A stretch of 40,474 bases of DNA from an uncultured Planctomycetaceae bacterium (GCA_903917235.1 CAIWZS010000382.1:1-40474); one strand, 5' to 3'; shown: positions 5,589-38,572, counted from the stretch's first letter. Notes: generated by a model from the sequence alone, not told the origin. Numbers and translations: made by a program.

Positions 5589-7151
5589 TCAGACGGGCAC
5601 GACCAGCTCCTCGGTCACCTGCCAGCGTTCGGCGAGATCGACGTCGAGGTGGCTCGTGAGGTCGATGTCGGCACCGGGCTGCCGTAGTTTCTCGACAGCC
5701 TTCGCCTCGATCTGCCGCACCCGCTCCCGGGTGACGTCGAAGATCGTCCCCACCTCCTCGAGCGTGTAGGCGTAGCCGTCCGCCAACCCGAACCTCAGGC
5801 GGATGATCTCGCGCTCGCGATAGGAGAGCGTATCGAGAGCCCGCGAGAGCGAGGCGCGGAGTGACTGGCGGTTGAGGTCCTGGAGGGGATCCTCCTCGCG
5901 GCGATCGCAGACGAATTCACCCACCGATCCGTCCTCGGTCTCGCCGAGGGGCTGATCGAGCGAGGCCGGCCGTCGCGACATCCGCCAGATGCACTCGGCC
6001 TCGTCCACCGCGAGGCCGGAACGCGCCGCCAGTTCCTCGACCGTCGCCTCCCGACCGTGCTGCTGGAGCAGGTCGCGGGCGGCATTCCGCATCTTGGTGA
6101 GCATGTCGACCATGTGCACCGGCATGCGGATCGTGCGACTCTGGTCTGCGATCGCGCGGGTGATGGCCTGGCGGATCCACCACGTCGCGTACGTCGAGAA
6201 CTTGAAGCCGCGGGCATGCTCGAACTTGTCGACGGCCCGCATGAGGCCGGAGTTGCCTTCCTGGATCAGGTCGAGGAACGACAGACCACGGTTCCGGTAC
6301 CGCTTCGCGATCGAGATCACCAGTCGCAGGTTGCCCTCCGCAAGATCGCGCTTCGCCGCGTCGTAACGCTGCTGGAGATCCTCGAGTCGGGCGAGCCGTC
6401 GCGCGAGCGTGCGGCGGCTCTCACGGACGCCGAGCAGGATGCGCCGCTGCTCGAGCGCCGCCGTGGCGGGATCGATGGTGCCGCCGACGCGGTCGCCGAG
6501 CGTGGCGAGCCGGTCGGCCTTGGCTCGCAGCTCCTTGAGGAGCGGATAGAGCCGCTGGATCCGCAGGTGCATCTCTTCGACGAGTCGCACCGACTTGTTG
6601 CGCTGCCGCACGAGACGCCGCCACGCCGCCCGACGCTCCTCGGGGGCCGCGGCCCGCGAGGTGGCGATCCGAAAGAGGCGCCGCTTCTCCTGCTCGAGGC
6701 GACGCAGCGTCACGAGATTCGGCTCGAGCCGACGCAGGATCCGCTTCTTCTCCCCCGTGTTGGTGACCGACACCTCGATGGTCCGGTCGAGACGCACCGT
6801 CCCCGCCTGCACCCGCTCGAGGAGCTGGAGCGCGCCGGCGAGCACGAAGTCGTTCGCGAGCAGCGTGCGGCGGAACTTGCGCCGCCAGTGCTCGATCCGC
6901 CGGGCGCTGTCCACCTCGGTCTGTCGCGAGAGGAGCGGCATGCCACCCATCTGGAGCAGGTAGAGCCGCACCGGGTCGTCGATCACCGCGAGCGGCCGGC
7001 GGGCGCGGGCGGGTTTCGGGGAGCCGGCTTTGCCCACCGGGCGCTCGCCGGCACGCACCCCCTTGCCCCGAGGCAGCGGGGCGACCGGTGCGCTGGCGAC
7101 CGATGGTGCGGCGATCGGGTGGAGGGGGATCGGGGGGGCGCGACGTTGCAT
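5589..7151 (-). CDS. RNA polymerase sigma-70 family factor, RpoD-like
   Basis: A 520-aa primary-type sigma factor. Region 1.2 ([13 protein letters not shown]) is near residue 58. Region 2 ([30 protein letters not shown], the -10 binding [13 protein letters not shown]) is near 270-335. Region 3 follows ([16 protein letters not shown]). Region 4 ([31 protein letters not shown]) begins near 442. Region 1.1 is absent and replaced by a Pro/Ala-rich stretch. Residues about 90-260 form a long, Arg-rich helical insert between regions 1.2 and 2, as in large RpoD proteins but divergent. ATG 7151 is chosen; the bases just before it (GGTCACCTCC) are not a ribosome site but resemble the anti-Shine-Dalgarno tail of 16S rRNA. 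The GTG at 7223 is an alternative. Whether this is the housekeeping sigma or a group-2 relative cannot be told from one locus. Confidence 0.93.
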
Positions 7152-7533
7152 GGAGGTGACCCTGCTGGACGTGAAAGAGCCGTGTCGCGGTCGGCGGCTG
7201 GATCCCCGCCGCTCGGGCGACACTGCGGGTCAGGGAAGCAATTCGGGTGCCGCTCGGTCGCAGCCCCGCCCGCGGACCATGCCCGGACGCCGAATTCCCC
7301 GGGAAAATTCGAGGAAACGGGGCCGTGGACCCGCCACGCGTTGGAAATGGTCGTGTCGCATCCCGTCGACACGCGGGCGCCGCGCGTCGCCCGGTTGCAA
7401 CGCGTCGGGGGTGTCGATTCAAGTACCGGCCCCGTCCCACACGAAGTCACGGTGACGGAGGGGTGGCGATAGAATCAGGGGGCTCGCGAGCGGGGCCGCC
7501 AGCGCCGCACCCCGCGCCCCCGGAAGGTGCCTC
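7152..7533. other. Intergenic region between divergent sigma factor and membrane-protein genes
   Basis: About 380 bases with no supported gene. It holds a near-palindrome GAATTCCCCGGGAAAATTC near 7290 that could be an operator, and on the plus strand TAGAAT at 7470-7475 followed about 46 bases later by GGAAGG and the ATG at 7534. I see no clear minus-strand -10 for the sigma factor. The short ORFs of the track here are Arg/Pro-rich and unconvincing. Confidence 0.5.
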
Positions 7534-9069
7534 ATGGAGATCGCCGTTCTCGCCGCGATCGGCCTGCTCCTTCTCGGCGGTATCGTCGCGTTCGCCGTCG
7601 GCAACCGTGGCTGGAGCATCGGCACGGTCGTGGCCGCACTGCTCGTGCTCCTGGCGACAGGAGGATTCCTCTACCTCGGCGCGAGGCTGGCGGCGCGGGA
7701 TGCCGCGTGGGCGAAGGCCGTCAGCGATCTGGAGCAGCGGCTCGCGAGGGCCCGAGACGGCCTGGGCCCCACCGCGGACGGTCGGCTCGAACCGCTGCCC
7801 GACATGAAATCGGTGGCGATGCTCCGCGAGGAGCGCGATCGGTGGAGCCGCGCTGCGGCCACCGTCGATACGTGGCGGAATCGCTACTGGTCGAATGCCT
7901 CGTACGAACCGGACGGGGGAGACGGCCCGAGAATCGGGGCTCGCATCGTCGTGCCGAGGCCGCCGCGGCCTCCGGCGCCGGCCGCCGCGGGGGCCGATCC
8001 AAACCAGCCTGCCCCGGCCCCTCAACCGCCCCTCCTCGCAGCCGGCGCGATGATCTTCCTGTTCGACGAGTCCCCGCTCGCCGAGGGTGGACGGTACCTC
8101 GGCGCATTCACTGTCCGCGAAGCGGCATTCGATGCCGGCATCGACAGTCAGGTGCTCACGGCTACCTTCGTGGGGGAGCCGAATGAGCGCGAGCGCAAGG
8201 TGCTGTCCGAGCCGCACGGACCCGTCACGATCTACGACGAACTGCCGGTCGATCGCTGGATCGCCTTTTTCCGCCTGAATCCGGCGACCGACGCGGCGAA
8301 TGCGAACGGGGTGACCGCCCGAGACGACGTCGCAGCCCAGTTCGACGGCATCGACGACGATGACGTGCGGGCTCTCGTCCAGGCCTTCGTCGAACGATTC
8401 GAACAGCACGAGAGCGAGGTTTCGGAGGCAGAGTGGCCCGCCGCGGTGCAGCAGCTTTCCGAGGGTGCGGTCGTGCCGGGGAGTTTTTGGGCGACCGTCG
8501 AGTTCACGAAGAGTCACACGTTCGCGGGCGCGGCTGGGTCCGCGTCGCGAGAGTTCACGGCGGGCGACAAGGCCGAGTTCGACCTGGCGACCGCGCTGGA
8601 ACTGCGTGATCGCGATCTCGTGAAGGTGCGGCGGGTCGTCAGGCGACGCCCGCTCTCCGATGCCCTCGCGGCGATCTACGGCACGCAGGTCGGCCCAGTC
8701 GCCGAGCAGGGGGATGGAGGATCGCAGCGAGCCGACGGAGCGATCGCGCTTTTGCGGCAGCTGCGTTCGGAACTCGTGGTGATCGACACGGCCGCACAGC
8801 GACTCGACCAGGCACTGGCGGCCACGACCGCCAACACGGAGGCCACGACGGTGGTCGTGCAGGAGTTGACGGAAGACCTCGGCTCCTGGGAGCGAGACGC
8901 CACAGCGGCCACCGGCGTGGCGGATGCCTTCGCCACGTCGATCGACACGACGACGCGGCAGCGCGAACAGGCTGATCAGGCCGTCGTCACCCTCGGCAGG
9001 GAACTGGCCGCGATGCTGGCGCGGCTCACGGGGGAGATCGACCGCGTCGCGCCGGCCCCGGGACGCTGA
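7534..9069 (+). CDS. Membrane-anchored protein of unknown function with coiled-coil tail
   Basis: A 511-aa protein. Two hydrophobic segments (about residues 3-25 and 30-52) form an N-terminal hairpin in the membrane. A soluble region follows, with a Pro/Ala-rich linker near 145-170 and a probable beta domain around FLFDESPLAEGGRYLGAF. A helical C-terminus from about 395 has heptad-like QLRSELVVIDTAAQRLDQAL segments suggesting a coiled coil. I recognise no named domain; it looks like a planctomycete-specific family. The ATG at 7534 has GGAAGG seven bases upstream. It stands alone: divergent from the sigma factor, with a promoter-bearing gap before btaA. A structural or scaffolding role is conceivable, but nothing in the sequence proves it. 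Confidence 0.8.
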   Translation: MEIAVLAAIGLLLLGGIVAFAVGNRGWSIGTVVAALLVLLATGGFLYLGARLAARDAAWAKAVSDLEQRLARARDGLGPTADGRLEPLPDMKSVAMLREERDRWSRAAATVDTWRNRYWSNASYEPDGGDGPRIGARIVVPRPPRPPAPAAAGADPNQPAPAPQPPLLAAGAMIFLFDESPLAEGGRYLGAFTVREAAFDAGIDSQVLTATFVGEPNERERKVLSEPHGPVTIYDELPVDRWIAFFRLNPATDAANANGVTARDDVAAQFDGIDDDDVRALVQAFVERFEQHESEVSEAEWPAAVQQLSEGAVVPGSFWATVEFTKSHTFAGAAGSASREFTAGDKAEFDLATALELRDRDLVKVRRVVRRRPLSDALAAIYGTQVGPVAEQGDGGSQRADGAIALLRQLRSELVVIDTAAQRLDQALAATTANTEATTVVVQELTEDLGSWERDATAATGVADAFATSIDTTTRQREQADQAVVTLGRELAAMLARLTGEIDRVAPAPGR

Positions 9070-28180: not shown

Positions 28181-28376
28181 CCGTCGGCTCCACGACCACT
28201 TCCGTGAGAATTGGATGAGGGTCGCCGGGCCGCTTGTGAGCCCGCGGGGGGGACCCTAGCCTGACGGTCGACCTGGGCCGATGACGGCGCGCCGTGCCGG
28301 CCGCGTCACACCCTTCCGTTTCGGGGCCGTCGGGCCCGCTCCATCCGATCCGCACCGAGCACAGGACGCAGCCGCC

Positions 28377-29972
28377 ATGGAATTCTTCGACGCGCTCTCG
28401 ACCCTCGGACCGGGCCAGGTGCTCCTCCTCATCACGGCGCTCGTGATCGCCTTCGGCTTCGAATGCGTCAACGGGTTCCACGACACCGCGAACGCGGTGG
28501 CGACGGTCATCTATACGAAGAGCCTCAAGCCGACCCCGGCCGTCGTCTGGTCCGGCCTCTGGAACTTCATCGGCGTGCATGCCGGTGGCATCGGCGTGGC
28601 CTTCAGCGTCGTCCACCTGCTGCCCGTCGACCTGCTCGTCAACATCAAGACGGGACGCGGCCTCGCGATGGTCCTGGCCCTCCTCCTCGCCGCCATCATC
28701 TGGAATTTCGCGACCTGGTACCGCGGCCTGCCGGCATCGAGCTCGCACGCGCTCATCGGGTCGATCATGGGCGTCGGGATGATGAACGCCTGGATGGAGC
28801 ACGGGTCGCTCTTCAAGGGCGTCAACTGGCACAAGGCGACGGAAGTGGCGATGGCGCTCCTGCTGTCGCCGCTCATCGGGTTCGGGCTCGCCGCGGGCCT
28901 GCTGCTCCTTGGGAAGCGACTCATCCCGTCGCAGAAGCTCTACGAGGCGCCGAGCGAGACCGAGCCGCCTCCCATGTGGATCCGCGCGATCCTCATCGGC
29001 ACCTGCACGGGTGTCAGCTTCGCGCACGGGTCGAACGACGGTCAGAAGGGGATGGGACTCATCATGCTCGTGCTCATCGGGATCGTGCCCGCGACGTACG
29101 CGCTCAACATGGGCACCTCGCAGGCGGACATCACGGCCGTCGTCGAGGCCGCGCGCGACCTGCACGACGAGCTGCAGGCGCCGGAGATCGCCGGGCTCAT
29201 GGATGCGCTCAAGCAGGAGTACATGGCGAGCACCCGCGTCGAGAAGCTGCGCCGCAGCGAGGCCCTGGCGGCGACGATCGAGCCCTACGGCAATTTCGAC
29301 GACGACGTGCACGGCTTTGAATTCCGCAGTCCGGGCCTCGCGAGCGACCTCATTGACCCGTACCCGCGGGCTGACGCCGTGCTCGCGACGCTCGACCCGC
29401 TGCCGATCGCGAAGGATTTGATGAGTGCGCTCGATGGCAAGACGAGCTTCGAGGATCTCGGCTCGGAGGAGCGGTGGCAGGTCAGGACGCACCTCGTCGA
29501 GCTCGGGGCGTCGGTGCGGACGCTCGTGCGCACGTTCGGCGACAAGATGGCCGAGGATCGCCGGAAGGTGCTGATGAGCCTCGCGGGCAAGCTGTCCAAG
29601 CCGGTGGAGTACGTGCCGGAGTGGGTGAAGATGGGCGTGGCACTCTGTCTCGGCCTGGGCACGATGGTCGGCTGGAAGCGGATCGTCGTCACCGTGGGCG
29701 AGAAGATCGGCAAGACGCACCTCACCTACGCGCAGGGTGCGTCGGCCGAGCTCGTCGCCGCCGCCACGATCGGCCTCGCCGATGGCTTCGGCATGCCGGT
29801 CAGCACGACCCACGTGCTCTCGAGCGGTGTGGCGGGGACGATGTGGGCCAACAAGTCGGGCATCCAGGCCGAAACGGTGCGGGACATCGCCCTCGCGTGG
29901 ATCCTGACGCTGCCGGCGGTGATCTTCCTCTCCGGACTCATTTACTGGATCGCCACGCTGTTCGTCGGGTGA
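28377..29972 (+). CDS. Inorganic phosphate transporter, Pit family
   Basis: A 531-aa inner-membrane carrier that couples phosphate (often as a metal complex) to protons or sodium. The two inverted Pit signatures are visible: GFECVNGFHDTANAVATVIYTK near residue 23 and TGVSFAHGSNDGQKGMG near 210, plus GLPASSSHALIGSIMG and GMPVSTTHVLSSGVAGTM. Between the halves lies a hydrophilic, charged insert of about 180 residues (about 245-420) predicted helical and cytosolic. ATG 28377 begins at the family N-terminus; the 32 residues added by the track are not. The adjacent porin gene points to one phosphate-uptake unit. No PhoU-like pit accessory gene (DUF47) is beside it. Confidence 0.93.
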   Translation: MEFFDALSTLGPGQVLLLITALVIAFGFECVNGFHDTANAVATVIYTKSLKPTPAVVWSGLWNFIGVHAGGIGVAFSVVHLLPVDLLVNIKTGRGLAMVLALLLAAIIWNFATWYRGLPASSSHALIGSIMGVGMMNAWMEHGSLFKGVNWHKATEVAMALLLSPLIGFGLAAGLLLLGKRLIPSQKLYEAPSETEPPPMWIRAILIGTCTGVSFAHGSNDGQKGMGLIMLVLIGIVPATYALNMGTSQADITAVVEAARDLHDELQAPEIAGLMDALKQEYMASTRVEKLRRSEALAATIEPYGNFDDDVHGFEFRSPGLASDLIDPYPRADAVLATLDPLPIAKDLMSALDGKTSFEDLGSEERWQVRTHLVELGASVRTLVRTFGDKMAEDRRKVLMSLAGKLSKPVEYVPEWVKMGVALCLGLGTMVGWKRIVVTVGEKIGKTHLTYAQGASAELVAAATIGLADGFGMPVSTTHVLSSGVAGTMWANKSGIQAETVRDIALAWILTLPAVIFLSGLIYWIATLFVG

Positions 29973-30180
29973 GGCGGCTCCCCGCCGGGGGCTCCGGTCA
30001 GCGAGGCCGCCGCGTCGGCAGTCTCTTCCCAGTTTGCCGGCGCGCACCACGTGGCACCCGTTGTGCAGTCTGCCCGACGGGACGTTTCGGCATGTCCGTT
30101 CCTTCCGGCGCACTCGGCTGACGATTCTCACGATCGGACCCCACCATGATGGCTGGGGGCGACGTACCGGGAACGACGAG

Positions 30181-31893
30181 ATGCACGGACGATCCGGTTG
30201 CACCGGTCGGATCGCCTCGATCGTGGTGATCATCCTCGTCGAGATGCTGTCCGGTCACGCTCTTGTCCGCGACGGGACGTGGCGGGGCAGCGCGTCCGGC
30301 GCCGAGCCGTTCGGCATCGCCAGTCCGTCGGCGTCGCTCGGGGACATCGCGCCGGGCGGGACGGACCCACCGGCGGATGACACGGCGCTCGACGAGCTTC
30401 CGCCGGACGAGTCGATGCCCGTCGACCGATCCGCGGCGACGGCCATCCCGGACCGGGCCGCGGCCGGGCCCACACCCGCCGACGAGGATCCACCGATCCA
30501 CGACGTCGTCAACGGTCTCCCGCTGACCGTCCATTGGCATCACGGCCTCGCGCTCGAATCGCCGTCACGGGACTTCGCCATCAAGGTGGGCGGCCGCGTG
30601 CAGATCGACACGTCGGCGTACACGGAGGGCGCAGGGCCGGCCGCGCCACCCGCCTTCGGCGGCTTGAACCCGCCGCTCAACGGCGCCACGAACGTTCGTC
30701 GGGCCCGCATCCGCGTCGAGGGACGGATGTACGAGGTCTATGACTGGGCGATGGAGTACGACTTCGCCAATCAGCTCGACGTGAACAACGAGGCCTTTCC
30801 CACCGAGCGGGACATCGGCCCGCTGCCGGCCATCACCGACGCCTGGGTGCAGATCCGCGAGCTCCCGATCCTCGGGATCGTGCGCATCGGCAACCAGAAG
30901 GACCCCTTCGGCTACGAGCACCTCACGAGCAGCCGCTGGCTCAACTTCATGGAGCGGTCGTTCACGATGGACGCCTTCGTGGGGCCGTTCAACAACGGCT
31001 TTCAGCCCGGCATCAAGATCCTGAACGCATCCGATGACGGCCGCGTCATCTGGCAGGTCGGCGAGTTCAAGAACACGAGCAACGTCTTCGGTGCGAGCGC
31101 CACCGACGGCGGCAGCCAGACCGTGGGACGGCTCGTGGTGCTGCCCGTGTTCGAGGGGGAAGGGGAGCGGCTGGTGCACCTCGGCGTGGCGGGCAGAACG
31201 ATGGGACTCAAGCTCCTGCAGACCGAATTCGATCCCGCGACCGGGCTGCCGACGGGGCCGGAAGTGCCCGCCGTCCGCTTCCGCAGTCGTGGCGACGTGC
31301 GGAACGGGCCGCCCGGCCCGGTCAATTCGATCTACGCGGATGCCGGGCTGCTCGAGGGCTCGTGGCAGAACATGATCGGCCTCGAGTTCGTCGGCAACGA
31401 CGGGCCGCTCTCCTGGCAGGCCGAATACATCGGCTCGTGGCTTTATGACGCGGTGACCACTGGCAACGACCCGATCAATGCCGGCCGCCAGCCGCCGGCG
31501 GGCACGAAGGTCGGCACGGTCTTCTACCAGGGCGGCTACGTCGAGGTGCTCTACTTCCTCACCGGTGAGACCCGCACCTACTCGCGGCTGGAAGGCGTCT
31601 TCGATCGTCCGATCCCGAGGAACACGTTCTACGTGCTGCGGGGCGCCCGCCGACTGCTTTCGAGTCCCGGGGCACAGGTGGGCGCCCGCTACAACTGCCT
31701 GTCGCTCAACGACGGCGAGGTGAACGGCGGCGTGCTCAACGCAGTCACGCTCGGGCTGAACTGGCTGTGGACCCCGAATGCCCGCGTCTACTTCAACTAC
31801 GACTTCACCTACCGCGACTTCGTCAACCTCGCCGGGTTCAACGGCAGCGGCGGCATCCACGCCTTCGGCACGCGCCTGGCCTTCGACTTCTGA
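30181..31893 (+). CDS. OprP/OprO-type (phosphate-selective) porin
   Basis: A 570-aa outer-membrane beta-barrel precursor. An N-terminal hydrophobic stretch (IASIVVIILVEML) is followed by a Pro/Asp-rich region of about 80 residues. The barrel then has the family landmarks DFAIKVGGRVQIDTSAYTEG, NVRRARIRVEGRMYEVYDW, IGNQKDPFGYEHLTSSR with NFMERS, GARYNCLSLND and the closing strand FNYDFTYRDFVN, ending in a terminal Phe (LAFDF) as barrel assembly signals do. Phosphate or polyphosphate preference is known only for OprP and OprO and is inferred here, supported by the adjacent Pit gene. It is a paralogue of 36740-38572. ATG 30181 is the first credible start. Confidence 0.9.
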   Translation: MHGRSGCTGRIASIVVIILVEMLSGHALVRDGTWRGSASGAEPFGIASPSASLGDIAPGGTDPPADDTALDELPPDESMPVDRSAATAIPDRAAAGPTPADEDPPIHDVVNGLPLTVHWHHGLALESPSRDFAIKVGGRVQIDTSAYTEGAGPAAPPAFGGLNPPLNGATNVRRARIRVEGRMYEVYDWAMEYDFANQLDVNNEAFPTERDIGPLPAITDAWVQIRELPILGIVRIGNQKDPFGYEHLTSSRWLNFMERSFTMDAFVGPFNNGFQPGIKILNASDDGRVIWQVGEFKNTSNVFGASATDGGSQTVGRLVVLPVFEGEGERLVHLGVAGRTMGLKLLQTEFDPATGLPTGPEVPAVRFRSRGDVRNGPPGPVNSIYADAGLLEGSWQNMIGLEFVGNDGPLSWQAEYIGSWLYDAVTTGNDPINAGRQPPAGTKVGTVFYQGGYVEVLYFLTGETRTYSRLEGVFDRPIPRNTFYVLRGARRLLSSPGAQVGARYNCLSLNDGEVNGGVLNAVTLGLNWLWTPNARVYFNYDFTYRDFVNLAGFNGSGGIHAFGTRLAFDF

Positions 31894-31948: not shown

Positions 31949-34900
31949 TCAGCGGATCGTGACGTTCGTCACGCCGGTGGGCAGCGTGGGATTCACGAAG
32001 AATTCCGCCGTGAAGGCTCCCGACGCGGAATCGAGAACGTGCTGGTCAATCGTCTTCAGTCCGAGGGAGCCGCCCGTCGCGTCGTACAGGTAGGCGAAGG
32101 CGGCGAAGAGGGCGCGACCCGTGTTGAAGAACTGGCCGGAGGCCGGCGGCGCGTTCTGTGAATAGGCCCCCGGCAGGGGCGAGAATGACTCGACCGACGA
32201 AGGATTGAGCGGGTTGGCCGGATCGAGCGTGGTCGTGCCGGGCAGCGTGTCGACGACGTACGAAACACGTCCTCCCGAATTCAGGAACTGCACCCCCAGA
32301 CGGCCCTTGAACGATTGGCCCTGCGAGCGTCCCGGCAGCGTGAGGATCGAGAAGGGGATACCCATGTCGATCACGATCGGGCCCGTCGCCGCCGGCGTGC
32401 CGTCGAACGTGAGCGTGCCCATGGCCGGCTGCCAATCGGGCGGACTCGTCGCACCCGGCGCGAGGCCGGTGGGGGCGAGACGCGTGTAGGCGAAGCCGCT
32501 CTGGGCCGCGTCGAGTCCGAGCGTGACCCCGTCCGGGGTGATGACGTAGCCGGCCCGCATCGAGCCGTCCCGCATCTCGTCGATGTTGAGGAAGGCGTTG
32601 TACGACTGGTTGAGCGCGGCGGTCGTGGGGAACGTGCCGAGGCCACTGCGGTCGAAGCCGACACCGAAGTTGGAGACGGGCGACAGGATCGACGCCCCGT
32701 CGCGGCGGTTGTCGGCGTACGACGCCCACCATCCCCCGGGGATCGTGACGGTGCCCAGCGGGCCGCCCGGCCGGGGCGCCGGCACCGGGATGATCGGCGC
32801 CGACGACCGCCGGCTGCCGTCGGTGATCGTCACGCTGCCGGTCGCGAACATCGTGCCGAACGTGGTGCTCGCCGCGACGCTGCCTGGGGGTGGCACGCTC
32901 GAGGCACCCACGGCCGAGACCACGAGCACGGGCACGGTCGCCACCGCAGGCCGTGCGACCGGCGTCGATGAGCCGGGCGGGGTGAACGTGGAATCGACGA
33001 ACGTGACCCGCTGCGTGGACCACGTCCCGAAGTAGAGGCGGTTGCTGCTGTTGAGGTAGACGTACCCGCGCGGCCCGTCGAGCACGATGTCGGGATCGAG
33101 TTGGAGGGCGTCGAAGTAGAGTCCGCGCGATCCCGTGTCGAGGTTCACCTCGAGCCGCCGCGCGCCGATCCGCATCGCGACCTTCGGATCGGCGGAGTCG
33201 GCACCGATGAAGTCAGGCGGCGAGGTATAGGGCACGAGGTACCGGCCCGTGTCGGCGACGTAGCCGTCGAGCGGGTTGCCTCCGGGGGCTGGAGGCAGGA
33301 CGCCGGCACCGAGCGAGACGTCGGTGAGCCCGTTGCGCACGATCGAGTTCGCCGTGAAGACGGTGCCGCTGAAGTCACCCGTGACGAGGTCGATTCCGTA
33401 GAAGCCGTTGTCGGCAAGAAGGTTGCCCCGGACGAGGAGCCCGGTCACGCCGGCCGGTGCCATCAGCCCTGCACGGGCGTTCGCACGGATGCGGTTGTCC
33501 GCGATGACCGTCCCGGAGAAGTCGCCCGGCGCCACCACGATGCCATGGGTGTTCGGGCCTCCCGAGACGAGCCCCCACGGATTCGCGCGGCCCCGCCGCC
33601 CGATCGTGTTGCGTGTGAGCGAGAGACCCCTCACGGAACCGGCCAGCTCGATCCCGAACGTGGCATTGGCCACGATCGTATTGCGGGCCAGCACCGTTCC
33701 CGTGAAGTCGCCCCCCGCGAAGCTCACGCCGCTGCCTACGTTGCCGCTGATCGTGAAGCCGGTGAGTGACGACCCACGTGAACGCCCGCTGAACGAGACG
33801 CCGCTGCCGACGAAGTTCCGCACGGCTCCCCCGCCGCGCATCGCGAGGACGGCCCCGTCGGCTACCGCGATGCCCGTCGCCGCCGCGGTGGACGCGGATC
33901 CGTCGAGGGTCACCGTCGCCCGCGCGGCCACCTCGGCCGGCGACGTGAATGCGAGGCCGGCCAACGGCGTGCGTCGCCCGATGGCTCCACCGAAGCGGAT
34001 CGCGCCCGCGGGCCGTTCAGCTCCGTCGCCGGAAAAGATCGACAGCGGAAACCCGCCGTCGAGGGTGCCGGCGAACGCCACGGGCGTTCCCTCCGTCTCC
34101 ACCCACGTCTGGCTCGCGAGTCGGGCCGGACCACCGACGGCGAAGCGGCCTCGACCCGTGACGAACGTGCCCGCCAGCGTCGTCCGATCGGCATACACCT
34201 GGTCGTGAGCCGTGGCGGCTCCGGCCACCGCCGTCGAACCGGCCGCGTCCGTCGTCACGCCCGCGAGCGGCACCGTCGGACCGATCGGACGGACGAACCT
34301 CGTGGCGGCACCGGACCGGACGGAAAGTCCCTCGCCGCCGGGCGTCGTGCCGTCGATCGCGCCGGTGAACGTGACCGCGCCGGCTGCCGCCCGCACGAGC
34401 GTGTCGGCGGCGAGCGTTGTCGCACCGGACACGGAGAACGCCCGGCCGTTCGTGCGGTAGGTCCCGCCGAGGACGGCGTTCTGGCCGTAGGACTGTGGAC
34501 CGAGCGTCGTGACCGAGCCGAGGACGACTTTCGCGGAGCCACCGTTGGGCCGCAGCCGCAGAAGGCCCGCCTCGACGTCGAACATGACGTCGAACATGTC
34601 GTAGAGGTTGAGCCCGGTGTTCACGTTGTTGCCGGTGGTCGCCTTCCCGCTGGACGACGAGTAGCCGACCTGGTTGACGGAGCCGTCGTTTCCCGCGATG
34701 AATGACCACGCGAGCGGCGGCGTGCCGGGAGCCGGTGGGAAGTCGACGGTCAGCCTCGTGCCGGGATCGACCGCGTCGCCACCGGAGGAAAACGGGTACG
34801 GCTCATCGGCCGGCCACTCGGGCAGCCGCACGCTCATCGACGGCGCTCCCGAATCGATGAGCGTCTGGAGTGGACCGAGCGTCCGGCTGCGATCCCCCAT

Positions 34901-36313
34901 CGAGAGCGTGTAGGTGGGGGCGAAGGCCAGCTGGTCGAACACCTGCCGACCCGATGTCGGGTAGGAGACGTCGTCGATCCGATCGAGCGTCACCGCGTAG
35001 GGGAACTGCGCCCGCAGCTCGGGCGTGAGCCCGACCGTGAGCCGAGCCGGTCCGCCGATCGGCCCGAGTTCGACCACGAAGCCACTCGAGAGGTTGCCAG
35101 GCAGCTGCAGCAGCACGTTCGTGACCGCGACACCCGGCTCGGTCCCGCGATTGATGCCGAACGACGCGCCAAAGTCACCGAAGAAACTCCCCTCGACGGG
35201 CGGCGTCGTGCCGAGGAAGTCGAAGGATGCGCCCGTGTTGACGTTGCCCCCCGACAGGATCGCACCGATCTGCACGGGCACGGCCGTGGAGACGGCCGCG
35301 GCACCACGGCCGAGCGTCACGACCGCGTCCACGGCGACCGCGTCGTAGAAGTTGCCCGACGTGTAGTTCGCGTCGACCGGCGGCCCGCTCGGATCGATCC
35401 CGGGCCACACGGCCGGGTCATAGCCCGCCATGAACCCCGTGCCGCCGGTGTCGAACTCGTACATCCGCACCGGCCCACCACCGATCGACACCTCGATTCC
35501 ATACTTGTCCTGGACGGTGCCGCCCGACGTCGTGTAGGGCAGATAGTGCAACGGGATCGAACGGCTGGCGGCCGACTGCGGCACCACGAGCGGATCGACC
35601 GCGCGCGTCGCGAGCGACCGCAGCGGCACGCGGCCACCCACCGGGCCGTCGAAGGTCGTCGCGACCGGGCTCGTGACCGAAAGCGACTGCCGACCCGGAC
35701 GGCTTCCGTCGACCGGACCGGTGAACGTCACGGCGCCGGCGCCGCCCGCGATCGACACGTCGGCCGTAAGCGTCGTCGGGCCTTCGATCCGCACATCAGT
35801 GGCCGCGCGCCACGTGCCCGCCAGCTCGAGACGGGACGCAGCCAGCGTGATGCGTCCGCCCGTCGAGACGATGTTCGTCGCGGTCAGAGTCGCCGCGGGC
35901 AGACGCATCTCGACATCGCCCGCGAAGGCTGCGGCCGCCCCGAACTCGACCCGCTCGACCGCCTCCACCAGCAGCGAGGCTCCGATGTCGCCCGCGGCGA
36001 CGACGAGGCGTTGCGACCCCGCGGTGCCGGTGACGATCACCCGCGAGATCGTCGCGTCCGAGACGCTGAACGCGCTCTCGAAGCGCGGGTTCGCAGCCAC
36101 CTCGACGAGGCCGGCCGCCTGACGCACGTAGGCCGTGTCGAGCCGCGCGGACGAGTCGACCGCGATGACAAGGTCCGATCCGACGACCGTGGGGCTGACG
36201 GCGAGCAGGGTCCGGCGCTCGAGCCGCTCGGGGGCCGCCACCCCGGGCCACGTGCCGCCGCCGCCGCGCACCCGCAGTGCGAGACGAAGCGTCGTCGTTC
36301 GATCTCGCTTCAT
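31949..36313 (-). CDS. Giant exported mosaic protein: LEPR-XLL motif, adhesin-type repeats, two pepsin-like domains, beta-helix
   Basis: A 1454-aa protein beginning with a basic leader and LERRTLLAVSP near residue 31, the LEPR-XLL type motif of large planctomycete exported proteins. Three copies of a ~75-residue repeat (AGTW... to VTFTG, DG, PG, LSV, FxxPxG, VPL) lie near 165-240, 615-690 and 713-790. Between copies one and two is a ~370-residue insert with MYEFDTGGTGF (Asp 288) and TLIDSGAPSMSV (Asp 487). A right-handed beta-helix with SGVSF, NTI, GTV and GI steps covers about 820-1005. The last 400 residues repeat the protease-like layout: VNLDTGSRGLYF (Asp 1059) and VIDMGIPFSILTLP (Asp 1316). 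No C-terminal anchor is seen. Gene reality and export motif are firm; aspartic-protease folds are my inference. Confidence 0.88.
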   Translation of the reverse strand: MKRDRTTTLRLALRVRGGGGTWPGVAAPERLERRTLLAVSPTVVGSDLVIAVDSSARLDTAYVRQAAGLVEVAANPRFESAFSVSDATISRVIVTGTAGSQRLVVAAGDIGASLLVEAVERVEFGAAAAFAGDVEMRLPAATLTATNIVSTGGRITLAASRLELAGTWRAATDVRIEGPTTLTADVSIAGGAGAVTFTGPVDGSRPGRQSLSVTSPVATTFDGPVGGRVPLRSLATRAVDPLVVPQSAASRSIPLHYLPYTTSGGTVQDKYGIEVSIGGGPVRMYEFDTGGTGFMAGYDPAVWPGIDPSGPPVDANYTSGNFYDAVAVDAVVTLGRGAAAVSTAVPVQIGAILSGGNVNTGASFDFLGTTPPVEGSFFGDFGASFGINRGTEPGVAVTNVLLQLPGNLSSGFVVELGPIGGPARLTVGLTPELRAQFPYAVTLDRIDDVSYPTSGRQVFDQLAFAPTYTLSMGDRSRTLGPLQTLIDSGAPSMSVRLPEWPADEPYPFSSGGDAVDPGTRLTVDFPPAPGTPPLAWSFIAGNDGSVNQVGYSSSSGKATTGNNVNTGLNLYDMFDVMFDVEAGLLRLRPNGGSAKVVLGSVTTLGPQSYGQNAVLGGTYRTNGRAFSVSGATTLAADTLVRAAAGAVTFTGAIDGTTPGGEGLSVRSGAATRFVRPIGPTVPLAGVTTDAAGSTAVAGAATAHDQVYADRTTLAGTFVTGRGRFAVGGPARLASQTWVETEGTPVAFAGTLDGGFPLSIFSGDGAERPAGAIRFGGAIGRRTPLAGLAFTSPAEVAARATVTLDGSASTAAATGIAVADGAVLAMRGGGAVRNFVGSGVSFSGRSRGSSLTGFTISGNVGSGVSFAGGDFTGTVLARNTIVANATFGIELAGSVRGLSLTRNTIGRRGRANPWGLVSGGPNTHGIVVAPGDFSGTVIADNRIRANARAGLMAPAGVTGLLVRGNLLADNGFYGIDLVTGDFSGTVFTANSIVRNGLTDVSLGAGVLPPAPGGNPLDGYVADTGRYLVPYTSPPDFIGADSADPKVAMRIGARRLEVNLDTGSRGLYFDALQLDPDIVLDGPRGYVYLNSSNRLYFGTWSTQRVTFVDSTFTPPGSSTPVARPAVATVPVLVVSAVGASSVPPPGSVAASTTFGTMFATGSVTITDGSRRSSAPIIPVPAPRPGGPLGTVTIPGGWWASYADNRRDGASILSPVSNFGVGFDRSGLGTFPTTAALNQSYNAFLNIDEMRDGSMRAGYVITPDGVTLGLDAAQSGFAYTRLAPTGLAPGATSPPDWQPAMGTLTFDGTPAATGPIVIDMGIPFSILTLPGRSQGQSFKGRLGVQFLNSGGRVSYVVDTLPGTTTLDPANPLNPSSVESFSPLPGAYSQNAPPASGQFFNTGRALFAAFAYLYDATGGSLGLKTIDQHVLDSASGAFTAEFFVNPTLPTGVTNVTIR

Positions 36314-36739
36314 GTCACCCGTCTGATTCGCCCGGGGCCCCCGTCTCGAGCGTATTCGAGATCGGTGCGTCGCCGGCTCACTTCACGTACCGGACGTGGT
36401 CTGACACGTCGTCGCCTGACCCATTCAAAACGTGCCGCAACGCATTGGAGCGATGCCGTGGAGGTTCGGGCAAGGGGCGGCAACAGGGAAGGATCGTGGG
36501 CCTCAGGAGCGACCGACACCCCCCACCATGGAGGTGTCGGTGGGCAAACTGGGCGGACGTGAACGAAAAAGTTGAGATTGCGGCCGTTTCTCATAAAAGC
36601 AGCAACGGGGGTGATTCGATGAACTGTTCCGTAAGGGTTGACCGTGACGGTCGCAGTGGTTGCGGCCGGCGGGTCGATCCTTCCGGTTACCGCGAGCCTG
36701 ACGCCGCGACCGGTGCTTCGCAACGGACGCCACCACACC
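36314..36739. promoter_or_regulatory. Long regulatory gap between giant gene and second porin
   Basis: A 426-base divergent intergenic region. It contains a palindrome CTCGAGCGTATTCGAG (36345-36360); four CACGT/ACGTG half-sites at 36384, 36394, 36405 and 36430, the first pair forming CACGT-ACCGG-ACGTG; and a hairpin at 36512-36541. The best promoter for the porin is TTGAGA (36572-36577), 16 bases, TAAAAG (36594-36599), in the most AT-rich patch nearby. GGGGGTGATTCG precedes an ATG at 36619 that opens an out-of-frame reading frame. Confidence 0.5.
36512..36541 (+). promoter_or_regulatory. 9-bp hairpin upstream of porin promoter
   Basis: ACCGACACC, a 12-base loop, GGTGTCGGT. The loop and the following bases (CCCACC, GGTGGG) could pair in an alternative fold. 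It lies before the likely promoter, so it may be an operator or end of an upstream transcript rather than a leader structure. Confidence 0.4.
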
Positions 36740-38572
36740 ATGACTCCGCACCATCGCCTGGCCCGTTCCGTCGGCCCCCCCGGACGCCTCGTGGGCGTTG
36801 CCTCGTGGTGGCACACCCTCGCCCACCTCGCCCTCGTCGGCTGGCTCGGCCTCGTCTTCTGCCCGGCGCGATCCTGGGCCGAAGCCGATGATCCCCAGCC
36901 CGCTGCCCCCGAGACTGCCGCGAAGGCCGCGCGCACCGCGGCACCGGTACCGCGTGTGGAGTCGCCACCCCGGGTACCGCCCGTCCGCGTGGCCCAGCAG
37001 CCGACCGACGCCGAGCGGCTCTCGCAGGGTGAGTCGTCGCTCACCGACGACGCGCTCTCCGACTCCGCCGGCCCGATGGCACCCGAGGGCCGGGAACTCG
37101 GCGCGGAGGGGGTGGAGAACCTCGGAGAGACCGAGGATGAGCAGCTCTCGCAGGGCGAGTCGTCGCTCACCGACGACGCGCTCACGGTGGGTGCCGACGT
37201 GAAGATGCTGCCGGAGTGGAACAACGGCCTCGAACTCTTCTCCACCAACCGCGAGTTTCGCATCCACATCGGTGGCCGGCTCCAGTACGACACGACGGCG
37301 TTCACGGCCGGCGACGGACCCAATCGCAACTTCAACGACGGCGGCCTCGACCCGAGGCTCGCCGGCGGCACCAACCCCCGCCGCGGCCGCCTCCGGGTGG
37401 ACGGCCAGATGTACGAGAACTACGAGTTCTTGAACGAGTGGGAGTTCGTGCAAGAAAGCTTCCTCTTCACGAACCAGCAGAACATCTCGGACGTCGCCGA
37501 CGGCCCGCTGCCCGCGCCGACCGAGGTCTGGCTCGGCATCTCGAAGCTGCCGTGGATCGGCAACGTCCGCATCGGCAACCAGAACACGCTCACCGGCCTC
37601 GAGCACATCACGAGCGACCGCTTCACGAATTTCATGGAGCGTTCGTACCTGGCCGACGCCTTCACGATGCCGTTCAACAACGCCTACTCCCCCGGCATCC
37701 TCATCTTCAACAACGCGCTCGAGAACGACCGCATGTGGTGGGGCATCGGGGCCTACAAGAACAACTACGACATCTACGGCTTCTCCAACACGGCGGCGGC
37801 CAATTCACTCCAGGGACGCGTGACGGGCCTGCTCATCGACGAGCCGGAACTCAACCGCTGGATGCACGTCGGCTTCTGCACCACGTACAACCAGCAGGCC
37901 AATCCCATCCTGCAGAAGAACTCCTCGGGGGCCGTGACCCAGCAGGGCGGCCTGCGGTACCGCGTCCGCGGCAACCTGCGGAACGGCCCGCCTGGTTCCT
38001 TCAACTCGATCTACGCCGACACCGGCATCCTCAACGGCAGCTACTTCACGCTCATGACGGCCGAGTACGCCGCGAACTTCGGCCCGCTCTCGATGCAGGC
38101 GGAGTGGACCTGCCACGTCGTGCCCAAGGTGCGGACGGCCCTCTCGACCAACGGCACATATGGCCAGCAGCCGGTGAACACCGTGATCGACAACCTCTTT
38201 TACCAGGGTGCCTACTGCGAGGTGATGTACGCCCTCACCGGCGAGGGACGAGCCTACAACAAGCGGCTCGCCATCCTCGACCGCTACGTGCCCCGCAGCA
38301 ACTTCTATCTCACCGAGGGGCGTCGAGGCTGGATCTCGAGCCCGGGTGCCTGGCAGATCGGGGCCCGCTACGACTGGGTGAATCTCAATGACAAGGGGCT
38401 CAACGGCGGCATGCTCAACGGCGTCACGCTCGGCCTCAACTGGATCTTGAACCCGAACGTCCGGGCCTACTTCAACTACGACTTCTGCTACCGCGACTTC
38501 GTGAACATGAACAACCAGAACGGCAGCGGCGGCATCAACGGCTTCGGCGCCCGGATGGCGATGGACTTCTGA
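36740..38572 (+). CDS. OprP/OprO-type porin, second paralogue
   Basis: A 610-aa barrel protein. The N-terminus has a signal peptide with a long basic start (WHTLAHLALVGWLGLVFCPARSWA, cleavage near residue 49). A disordered Pro/Ala/Glu region carries two copies of LSQGESSLTDDAL. The barrel has the same landmarks as the first porin: FRIHIGGRLQYDTTAFTAG, RRGRLRVDGQMYENYEF, IGNQNTLTGLEHITSDRF with NFMERS, LRNGPPGSFNSIYADTG, IGARYDWVNLND and FNYDFCYRDFVN, ending in MAMDF. Asn and aromatic residues are more frequent than in the first. The track start (GTG 36638) adds 34 unlikely residues, so ATG 36740 is used. It probably heads a transcript with the Cys-rich gene. Confidence 0.9.
   Translation: MTPHHRLARSVGPPGRLVGVASWWHTLAHLALVGWLGLVFCPARSWAEADDPQPAAPETAAKAARTAAPVPRVESPPRVPPVRVAQQPTDAERLSQGESSLTDDALSDSAGPMAPEGRELGAEGVENLGETEDEQLSQGESSLTDDALTVGADVKMLPEWNNGLELFSTNREFRIHIGGRLQYDTTAFTAGDGPNRNFNDGGLDPRLAGGTNPRRGRLRVDGQMYENYEFLNEWEFVQESFLFTNQQNISDVADGPLPAPTEVWLGISKLPWIGNVRIGNQNTLTGLEHITSDRFTNFMERSYLADAFTMPFNNAYSPGILIFNNALENDRMWWGIGAYKNNYDIYGFSNTAAANSLQGRVTGLLIDEPELNRWMHVGFCTTYNQQANPILQKNSSGAVTQQGGLRYRVRGNLRNGPPGSFNSIYADTGILNGSYFTLMTAEYAANFGPLSMQAEWTCHVVPKVRTALSTNGTYGQQPVNTVIDNLFYQGAYCEVMYALTGEGRAYNKRLAILDRYVPRSNFYLTEGRRGWISSPGAWQIGARYDWVNLNDKGLNGGMLNGVTLGLNWILNPNVRAYFNYDFCYRDFVNMNNQNGSGGINGFGARMAMDF
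37019..37183 (+). repeat. 39-bp direct repeat (two copies) inside the porin gene
   Basis: Copies 37019-37057 and 37145-37183 differ at one base and encode LSQGESSLTDDAL twice, 42 codons apart. They lie in the acidic linker between signal peptide and barrel. The near identity at third positions argues for a recent in-frame duplication or gene conversion. Confidence 0.85.

Follow-up and report, generated by a model that had tools for sequence, protein, structure and literature searches.

Two pepsin-like modules, one with altered active-site motifs, interrupt the predicted beta-solenoid of a probably exported planctomycete protein

A contig of 40,474 nucleotides from an uncultured Planctomycetaceae bacterium (GCA_903917235.1, CAIWZS010000382.1:1-40474), analysed over its whole length and referred to here as the window, carries a long ORF on its minus strand. 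The GC content of this ORF by codon position (0.66/0.58/0.88) indicates real coding, and its context in the window as well as its GC content are consistent with the host genus. The flanks (28281-31890 and 36638-38569) hold a PHO4 phosphate transporter gene and two Porin_O_P genes; in a congeneric genome (G011) the PHO4 and porin genes are arranged differently and the ORF is absent. No functional partner was found in the neighbourhood of the gene, which lies between the two porin genes. The locus is organized as follows:

31949..36313, minus strand: whole ORF, 1454 aa with an ATG start, encoding a candidate exported stalk protein that bears two pepsin-like modules
36134..36313, minus strand: N-terminal region with ERLERRTLLA, a candidate export region resembling the planctomycete LEPRxLL-type N-terminus
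35567..35821, minus strand: beta-solenoid repeat unit A (residues ~165-249), directly before module 1
34535..35566, minus strand: module 1, predicted bilobal pepsin-like domain (residues 250-593; AF2 and Foldseek)
33914..34477, minus strand: beta-solenoid repeat units B and C (residues ~613-800; repeat comparison)
33347..33805, minus strand: right-handed beta-helix (residues 837-989; Pfam PF13229, E 5.3e-10)
31952..33274, minus strand: module 2, divergent pepsin-like domain (residues 1014-1454 as analysed; hhalign of A5 against A6)
30034..31890, plus strand: flanking Porin_O_P gene, context only
36638..38569, plus strand: flanking Porin_O_P gene, context only

Searches of the full protein against Pfam and NCBIfam gave only beta-helix matches, with the PF13229 region between the two modules scoring 39.6 bits and passing the curated cut-off of 25.9. 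Repeat unit A and the repeat unit following module 1 are 43% identical over 88 residues, which places module 1 at a repeat boundary. Past module 2 the beta-helix resumes in five relatives (L014, L015, L018, L066, L067), the ORFs of the window and G006 proteins end directly after module 2, and L019 has the helix without module 2. Both modules interrupt the predicted beta-solenoid. The N-terminal region matched neither a signal model nor any other entry in the NCBIfam search; the relative L014 begins with a related stretch (ERLESRALLA), and the N-termini of the mycobacterial members resemble ordinary secretion signals when judged by eye. The LEPRxLL-like N-terminus, together with the beta-helix and the signal-like N-termini of mycobacterial relatives, leads us to infer that the window protein is probably exported and surface-exposed. 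Neither the beta-helix stalk nor the full-length mycobacterial relatives were accessible to the preliminary description.

The same description had placed four catalytic-type motifs in this ORF, and all were found there: FDTGGTGF (D288) and LIDSGAPS (D487), 199 residues apart in module 1, and LDTGSRGLYF (D1059) and VIDMGIPFS (D1316), 257 residues apart in module 2. The positions considered, all on the minus strand, are:

35450..35452, minus strand: codon of D288 (DTG), putative first catalytic Asp of module 1, kept in 28/28 rows
35363..35365, minus strand: codon of Y317, the module 1 flap residue that corresponds to pepsin Tyr75
34853..34855, minus strand: codon of D487 (DSG), putative second catalytic Asp of module 1, kept in 28/28 rows
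34613..34621, minus strand: NTG motif (residues 565-567) in the C-lobe of module 1, the same motif as in 4ehc
33251..33253, minus strand: codon of D1021 (ADTGRY), a fifth motif, not conserved
33137..33139, minus strand: codon of D1059 (DTGSRGLY), first Asp of module 2, kept in 9/9
33053..33055, minus strand: codon of L1087, flap position of module 2, Leu for Tyr in 9/9
32366..32368, minus strand: codon of D1316, the second Asp in module 2 (DMG here, D[MI]G across all nine two-module proteins)

The raw D[TS]G count (4, against a mean of 1.9 in shuffled sequences, P 0.135) is ordinary for the composition of the ORF, whereas a hydrophobic-D[TS]G-small pattern occurs three times against 0.24 expected (P 0.001). 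Conservation is stronger evidence than these counts. D288 and D487 are invariant in all 28 aligned rows (27 without L042, a copy of L019), with Tyr (20/28) or Phe (8/28) at the flap, and D1059 and D1316 are invariant in all nine two-module proteins, so that the Asp residues, on whose conservation in homologues the preliminary description had staked its reading, are kept in both modules. The DTG at residue 1021, absent from that description, lacks conservation in relatives and was set aside as a chance match.

For module 1, the best AF2 model, built from a 13-sequence alignment, reached pLDDT 85.6 and pTM 0.86 and was the one confident model among five, the other four ranging from pLDDT 55 to 70. 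Foldseek returned 357 PDB matches at E<=0.001 for it, and the best 50 of these, which were listed, are all pepsin-family aspartic proteases or 4ehc; pepsins rank first, with 2rmp at E 2e-10, and 4ehc, the C-terminal domain of Rv0977/PE_PGRS16, ranks third (E 3.8e-9). Profile-profile comparison linked module 1 to a PE-PGRS_C set (A7, E 6.8e-11), which itself matches 4ehc at E 4.5e-49, and to the PE_PGRS16-like part alone (E 1e-4). The pepsin matches of a confident model, the invariant Asp pair and the Tyr/Phe flap make it very likely that module 1 represents a bilobal aspartic protease, proteolysis itself being a prediction.

The corresponding model of module 2 was unusable (pLDDT 41): its Foldseek list was headed by pepsins and retropepsins, with no match at E<=0.001, and was given no weight, and direct comparison of the module with PE_PGRS16-like sequences alone was weak (E 0.032). 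Its placement therefore depends on a bridge, the short single-domain mycobacterial protein of PE-PGRS_C/PecA type represented by L026/L027 (A6), to which the module 2 profile (A5) aligned over its full length in hhalign with E 3.3e-19; a search of whole genomes with the module 2 profile also recovered the L026/L027 genes (E 2.6e-14 and 1.4e-13). The A6 protein scores above the cut-off of PF20729, and against the PecA model NF038019 it gave E 7e-5, under that model's cut-off. A comparison of A8 with A7 was discarded as circular, since both contain L026/L027. These profile links support module 2 as a homologue of the pepsin-like PE-PGRS_C/PecA-type domain. The two pepsin-like modules proposed from the sequence are thus supported along different routes, the first through the pepsin matches of its confident model and the second through profile-profile homology, and with the refinement that neither is an ordinary A1 pepsin.

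In the alignment of A5 with A6, the DMG of module 2 lies opposite DTG, and L1087 opposite Tyr. The preliminary description had been cautious about this fourth motif, rightly so: seven of the nine two-module proteins have DMG at this position and two have DIG, the flap residue is Leu in all nine, and the single-domain relatives L026/L027 have Tyr at the flap and DTG at the second motif. The Leu flap and D[Met/Ile]G throughout the nine proteins indicate that module 2 is probably non-proteolytic or altered. Having lost two features that aid catalysis and kept the Asp pair, it suggests a binding or regulatory role.

Neither module could be filed in a known family, as the Pfam tests for both candidate families failed. 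The HMM search for peptidase family A1 put forward in the preliminary description did not bear out membership, with no match to PF00026 or the AA clan in the full protein or the modules. Module 1 scored 11.7 bits against PF20729 (PE-PGRS_C), below the cut-off of 33, and module 2 gave no match; scanning the full protein against Pfam gave no PE domain match, and PDB sequence searches (P0001, A4, A5, A6) returned nothing relevant. In its predicted model module 1 shares with family A1 (pepsin, bacterial shewasins) the two-lobed fold with one Asp per lobe, and D288, Y317 and D487 are the equivalents of Asp32, Tyr75 and Asp215; module 2 lacks the Tyr. Classical A1 enzymes carry a hydrophobic-hydrophobic-Gly motif in each psi-loop, and the bacterial A1 proteins described are without signal peptides (PMC2761423). 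In contrast to this, the psi-loops here, with positions equated by eye, carry DFG in the N-lobe and NTG in the C-lobe of module 1, and NFG and NTG in module 2.

The PE-PGRS_C family (PF20729), which includes PecA/PE_PGRS35 and PE_PGRS16 (4ehc), resembles the window protein in several respects: the bilobal pepsin-like fold (tested on module 1 only), the DTG and DSG pair of module 1, from which module 2 differs by D[MI]G and a Leu flap, the C-lobe NTG of both modules (MNTG in 4ehc), and an exported or surface-located protein, export being predicted for the window protein. Unlike these proteins, the window protein has no PE domain match and no PGRS region, carries two modules on a beta-helix and stays under the Pfam cut-off. 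The NTG common to both modules and PE_PGRS16 places the modules on the PecA/PE_PGRS16 branch; by fold and motifs they behave like this branch, and they are assigned to neither family. The middle of the protein matches the right-handed beta-helix surface proteins (PF13229), from which it differs by the pepsin-like modules inserted between coils.

Relatives are few and scattered. Two further planctomycete copies occur in related genomes (96% and 57% identity in module 1), and no other member was found among 343 genomes sampled across the phylum. In a genome-contig scan, Mycobacterium, Mycolicibacterium, the second planctomycete and a MAG labelled Actinomycetota (L018) matched over all 1200 residues of the core, with 47-51% identity outside the genus, and outside the planctomycetes full-length relatives were found only in mycobacteria and in this MAG; three others, namely Acidisoma, a MAG of the Rhodospirillales and a genome of the Spartobacteria, had module 1 alone. 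The module 1 profile matched in 15 of 199 mycobacterial genomes, some of the matches being weak and partial. Of 149 mycobacterial genomes searched with module 2, three hold intact two-module genes and a fourth has one broken by frame disruption; direct reading added two more divergent genes of the two-module type. No matches were obtained for module 1 on plasmids or in viral contigs, or for module 2 in phages. About 50% identity over such a length in a few members of two phyla is, in our inference, best explained by horizontal transfer of the protein between planctomycetes and mycobacteria. When the module 1 tree is given a distant outgroup, a mycobacterial clade with 100/99 support excludes the planctomycete sequences, and the trees of module 1 and module 2 do not show the direction of transfer.

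Several features of individual relatives were also observed. The L014 contig is part of a genome placed in the family of the window genome, and the two-module gene of G496 (L068:1036-4566) is broken by frame disruptions. At loci described as mycobacterial, a second module 1 gene adjoins the two-module gene, either downstream or divergent (L015:11526, L017:5313, L018:11436, L067:6956). One mycobacterial relative (L045) has DAG for DTG in the first motif and is possibly an inactive copy, and a clade of shorter, apparently exported mycobacterial proteins of about 540-670 aa (L046-L051, L061, L062) carries module 1 at the C-terminus, with no Pfam match in the two tested. Behind module 1, L020 and L021 (about 5990-7640) have a sequence starting CFAAGT, which in L020 is a Hint_2 domain (E 1.8e-47), joining the putative protease to a possible self-splicing domain. 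A Spartobacteria protein (L022:5908-7188) consists of module 1 alone and ends in a PEP-CTERM-like sorting tail.

We consider it fairly probable that the window protein is an exported stalk with an active protease and a substrate-binding pseudoprotease, horizontally shared, with a presumed activity, surface location and substrate. If the motifs had arisen by chance in some unrelated surface protein rich in beta structure, the near-chance raw D[TS]G count (P 0.135) and the missing Pfam A1 match would fit; this is extremely improbable in view of the module 1 fold search, the profile links of both modules and the invariant Asp, and it is contradicted for module 1. Inactive pepsin folds exist, and the architecture resembles that of adhesins, so that neither module might be a protease and both might be pepsin-like folds that bind peptides or ligands on a stalk of adhesin type. 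For PE_PGRS16, the closest solved relative, no proteolytic activity was found (PMC6819658), and an intact signature is thus no proof of activity. We nevertheless regard a purely binding function as doubtful, because all 28 rows of module 1 retain D288 and D487 along with Tyr or Phe at the flap, and because the relative PecA is active: the processing of surface proteins by this mycobacterial surface protease depends on its DTG Asp (PMC6819658).

Activity of both modules, with module 2 working through D[MI]G and a non-Tyr flap, is unlikely. The Asp and Gly of each module 2 motif are invariant in 9/9 proteins, a pattern that loss of function alone would not preserve, but the flap Tyr and the motif Thr/Ser, both kept in L026/L027, are lost in all nine. 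Quite improbable is the stronger form, in which module 2 would be a working enzyme with a new active-site variant (DTG plus D[MI]G, Leu flap) and one stalk would present two proteases of different specificity to the same exported substrate. Of the tandem surface proteases proposed earlier, two pepsin-like modules remain, the second of which is probably no standard protease.

Following the reading of an active protease paired with a pseudoprotease, two pepsin-like domains would protrude from loops between the coils of an exported beta-helix stalk. D288 and D487 would activate a water molecule at the lobe junction, with Y317 on the flap, and module 1 would act at the cell surface or close to it, cutting exported proteins and perhaps also itself, in the manner of PecA, which cleaves PE proteins and itself. 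Module 2, with both Asp kept, the flap Tyr replaced by Leu and the second-motif Thr/Ser by Met or Ile, would most likely hold or select substrate, or bind peptide, without efficient cleavage. The gene would have been shared horizontally between planctomycetes and mycobacteria, with an N-terminus that differs by lineage.

Bacteria rarely have pepsin-like proteases. The examples described in 2009 were reportedly predicted to be intracellular, and the surface example reported later is the mycobacterial PecA. In a literature search we found no pepsin-like protease for planctomycetes, nor one on a beta-helix surface protein. The present analysis contributes further, probably exported members, which occur in planctomycetes and, with module 1 on its own, in Alphaproteobacteria and Verrucomicrobiota, together with a probable pair of protease and pseudoprotease on one stalk, suggesting that the branch holding PecA is wider than the PE proteins. 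The conserved D[MI]G of module 2 offers a direct test of the need for the second-motif residue and the flap Tyr.
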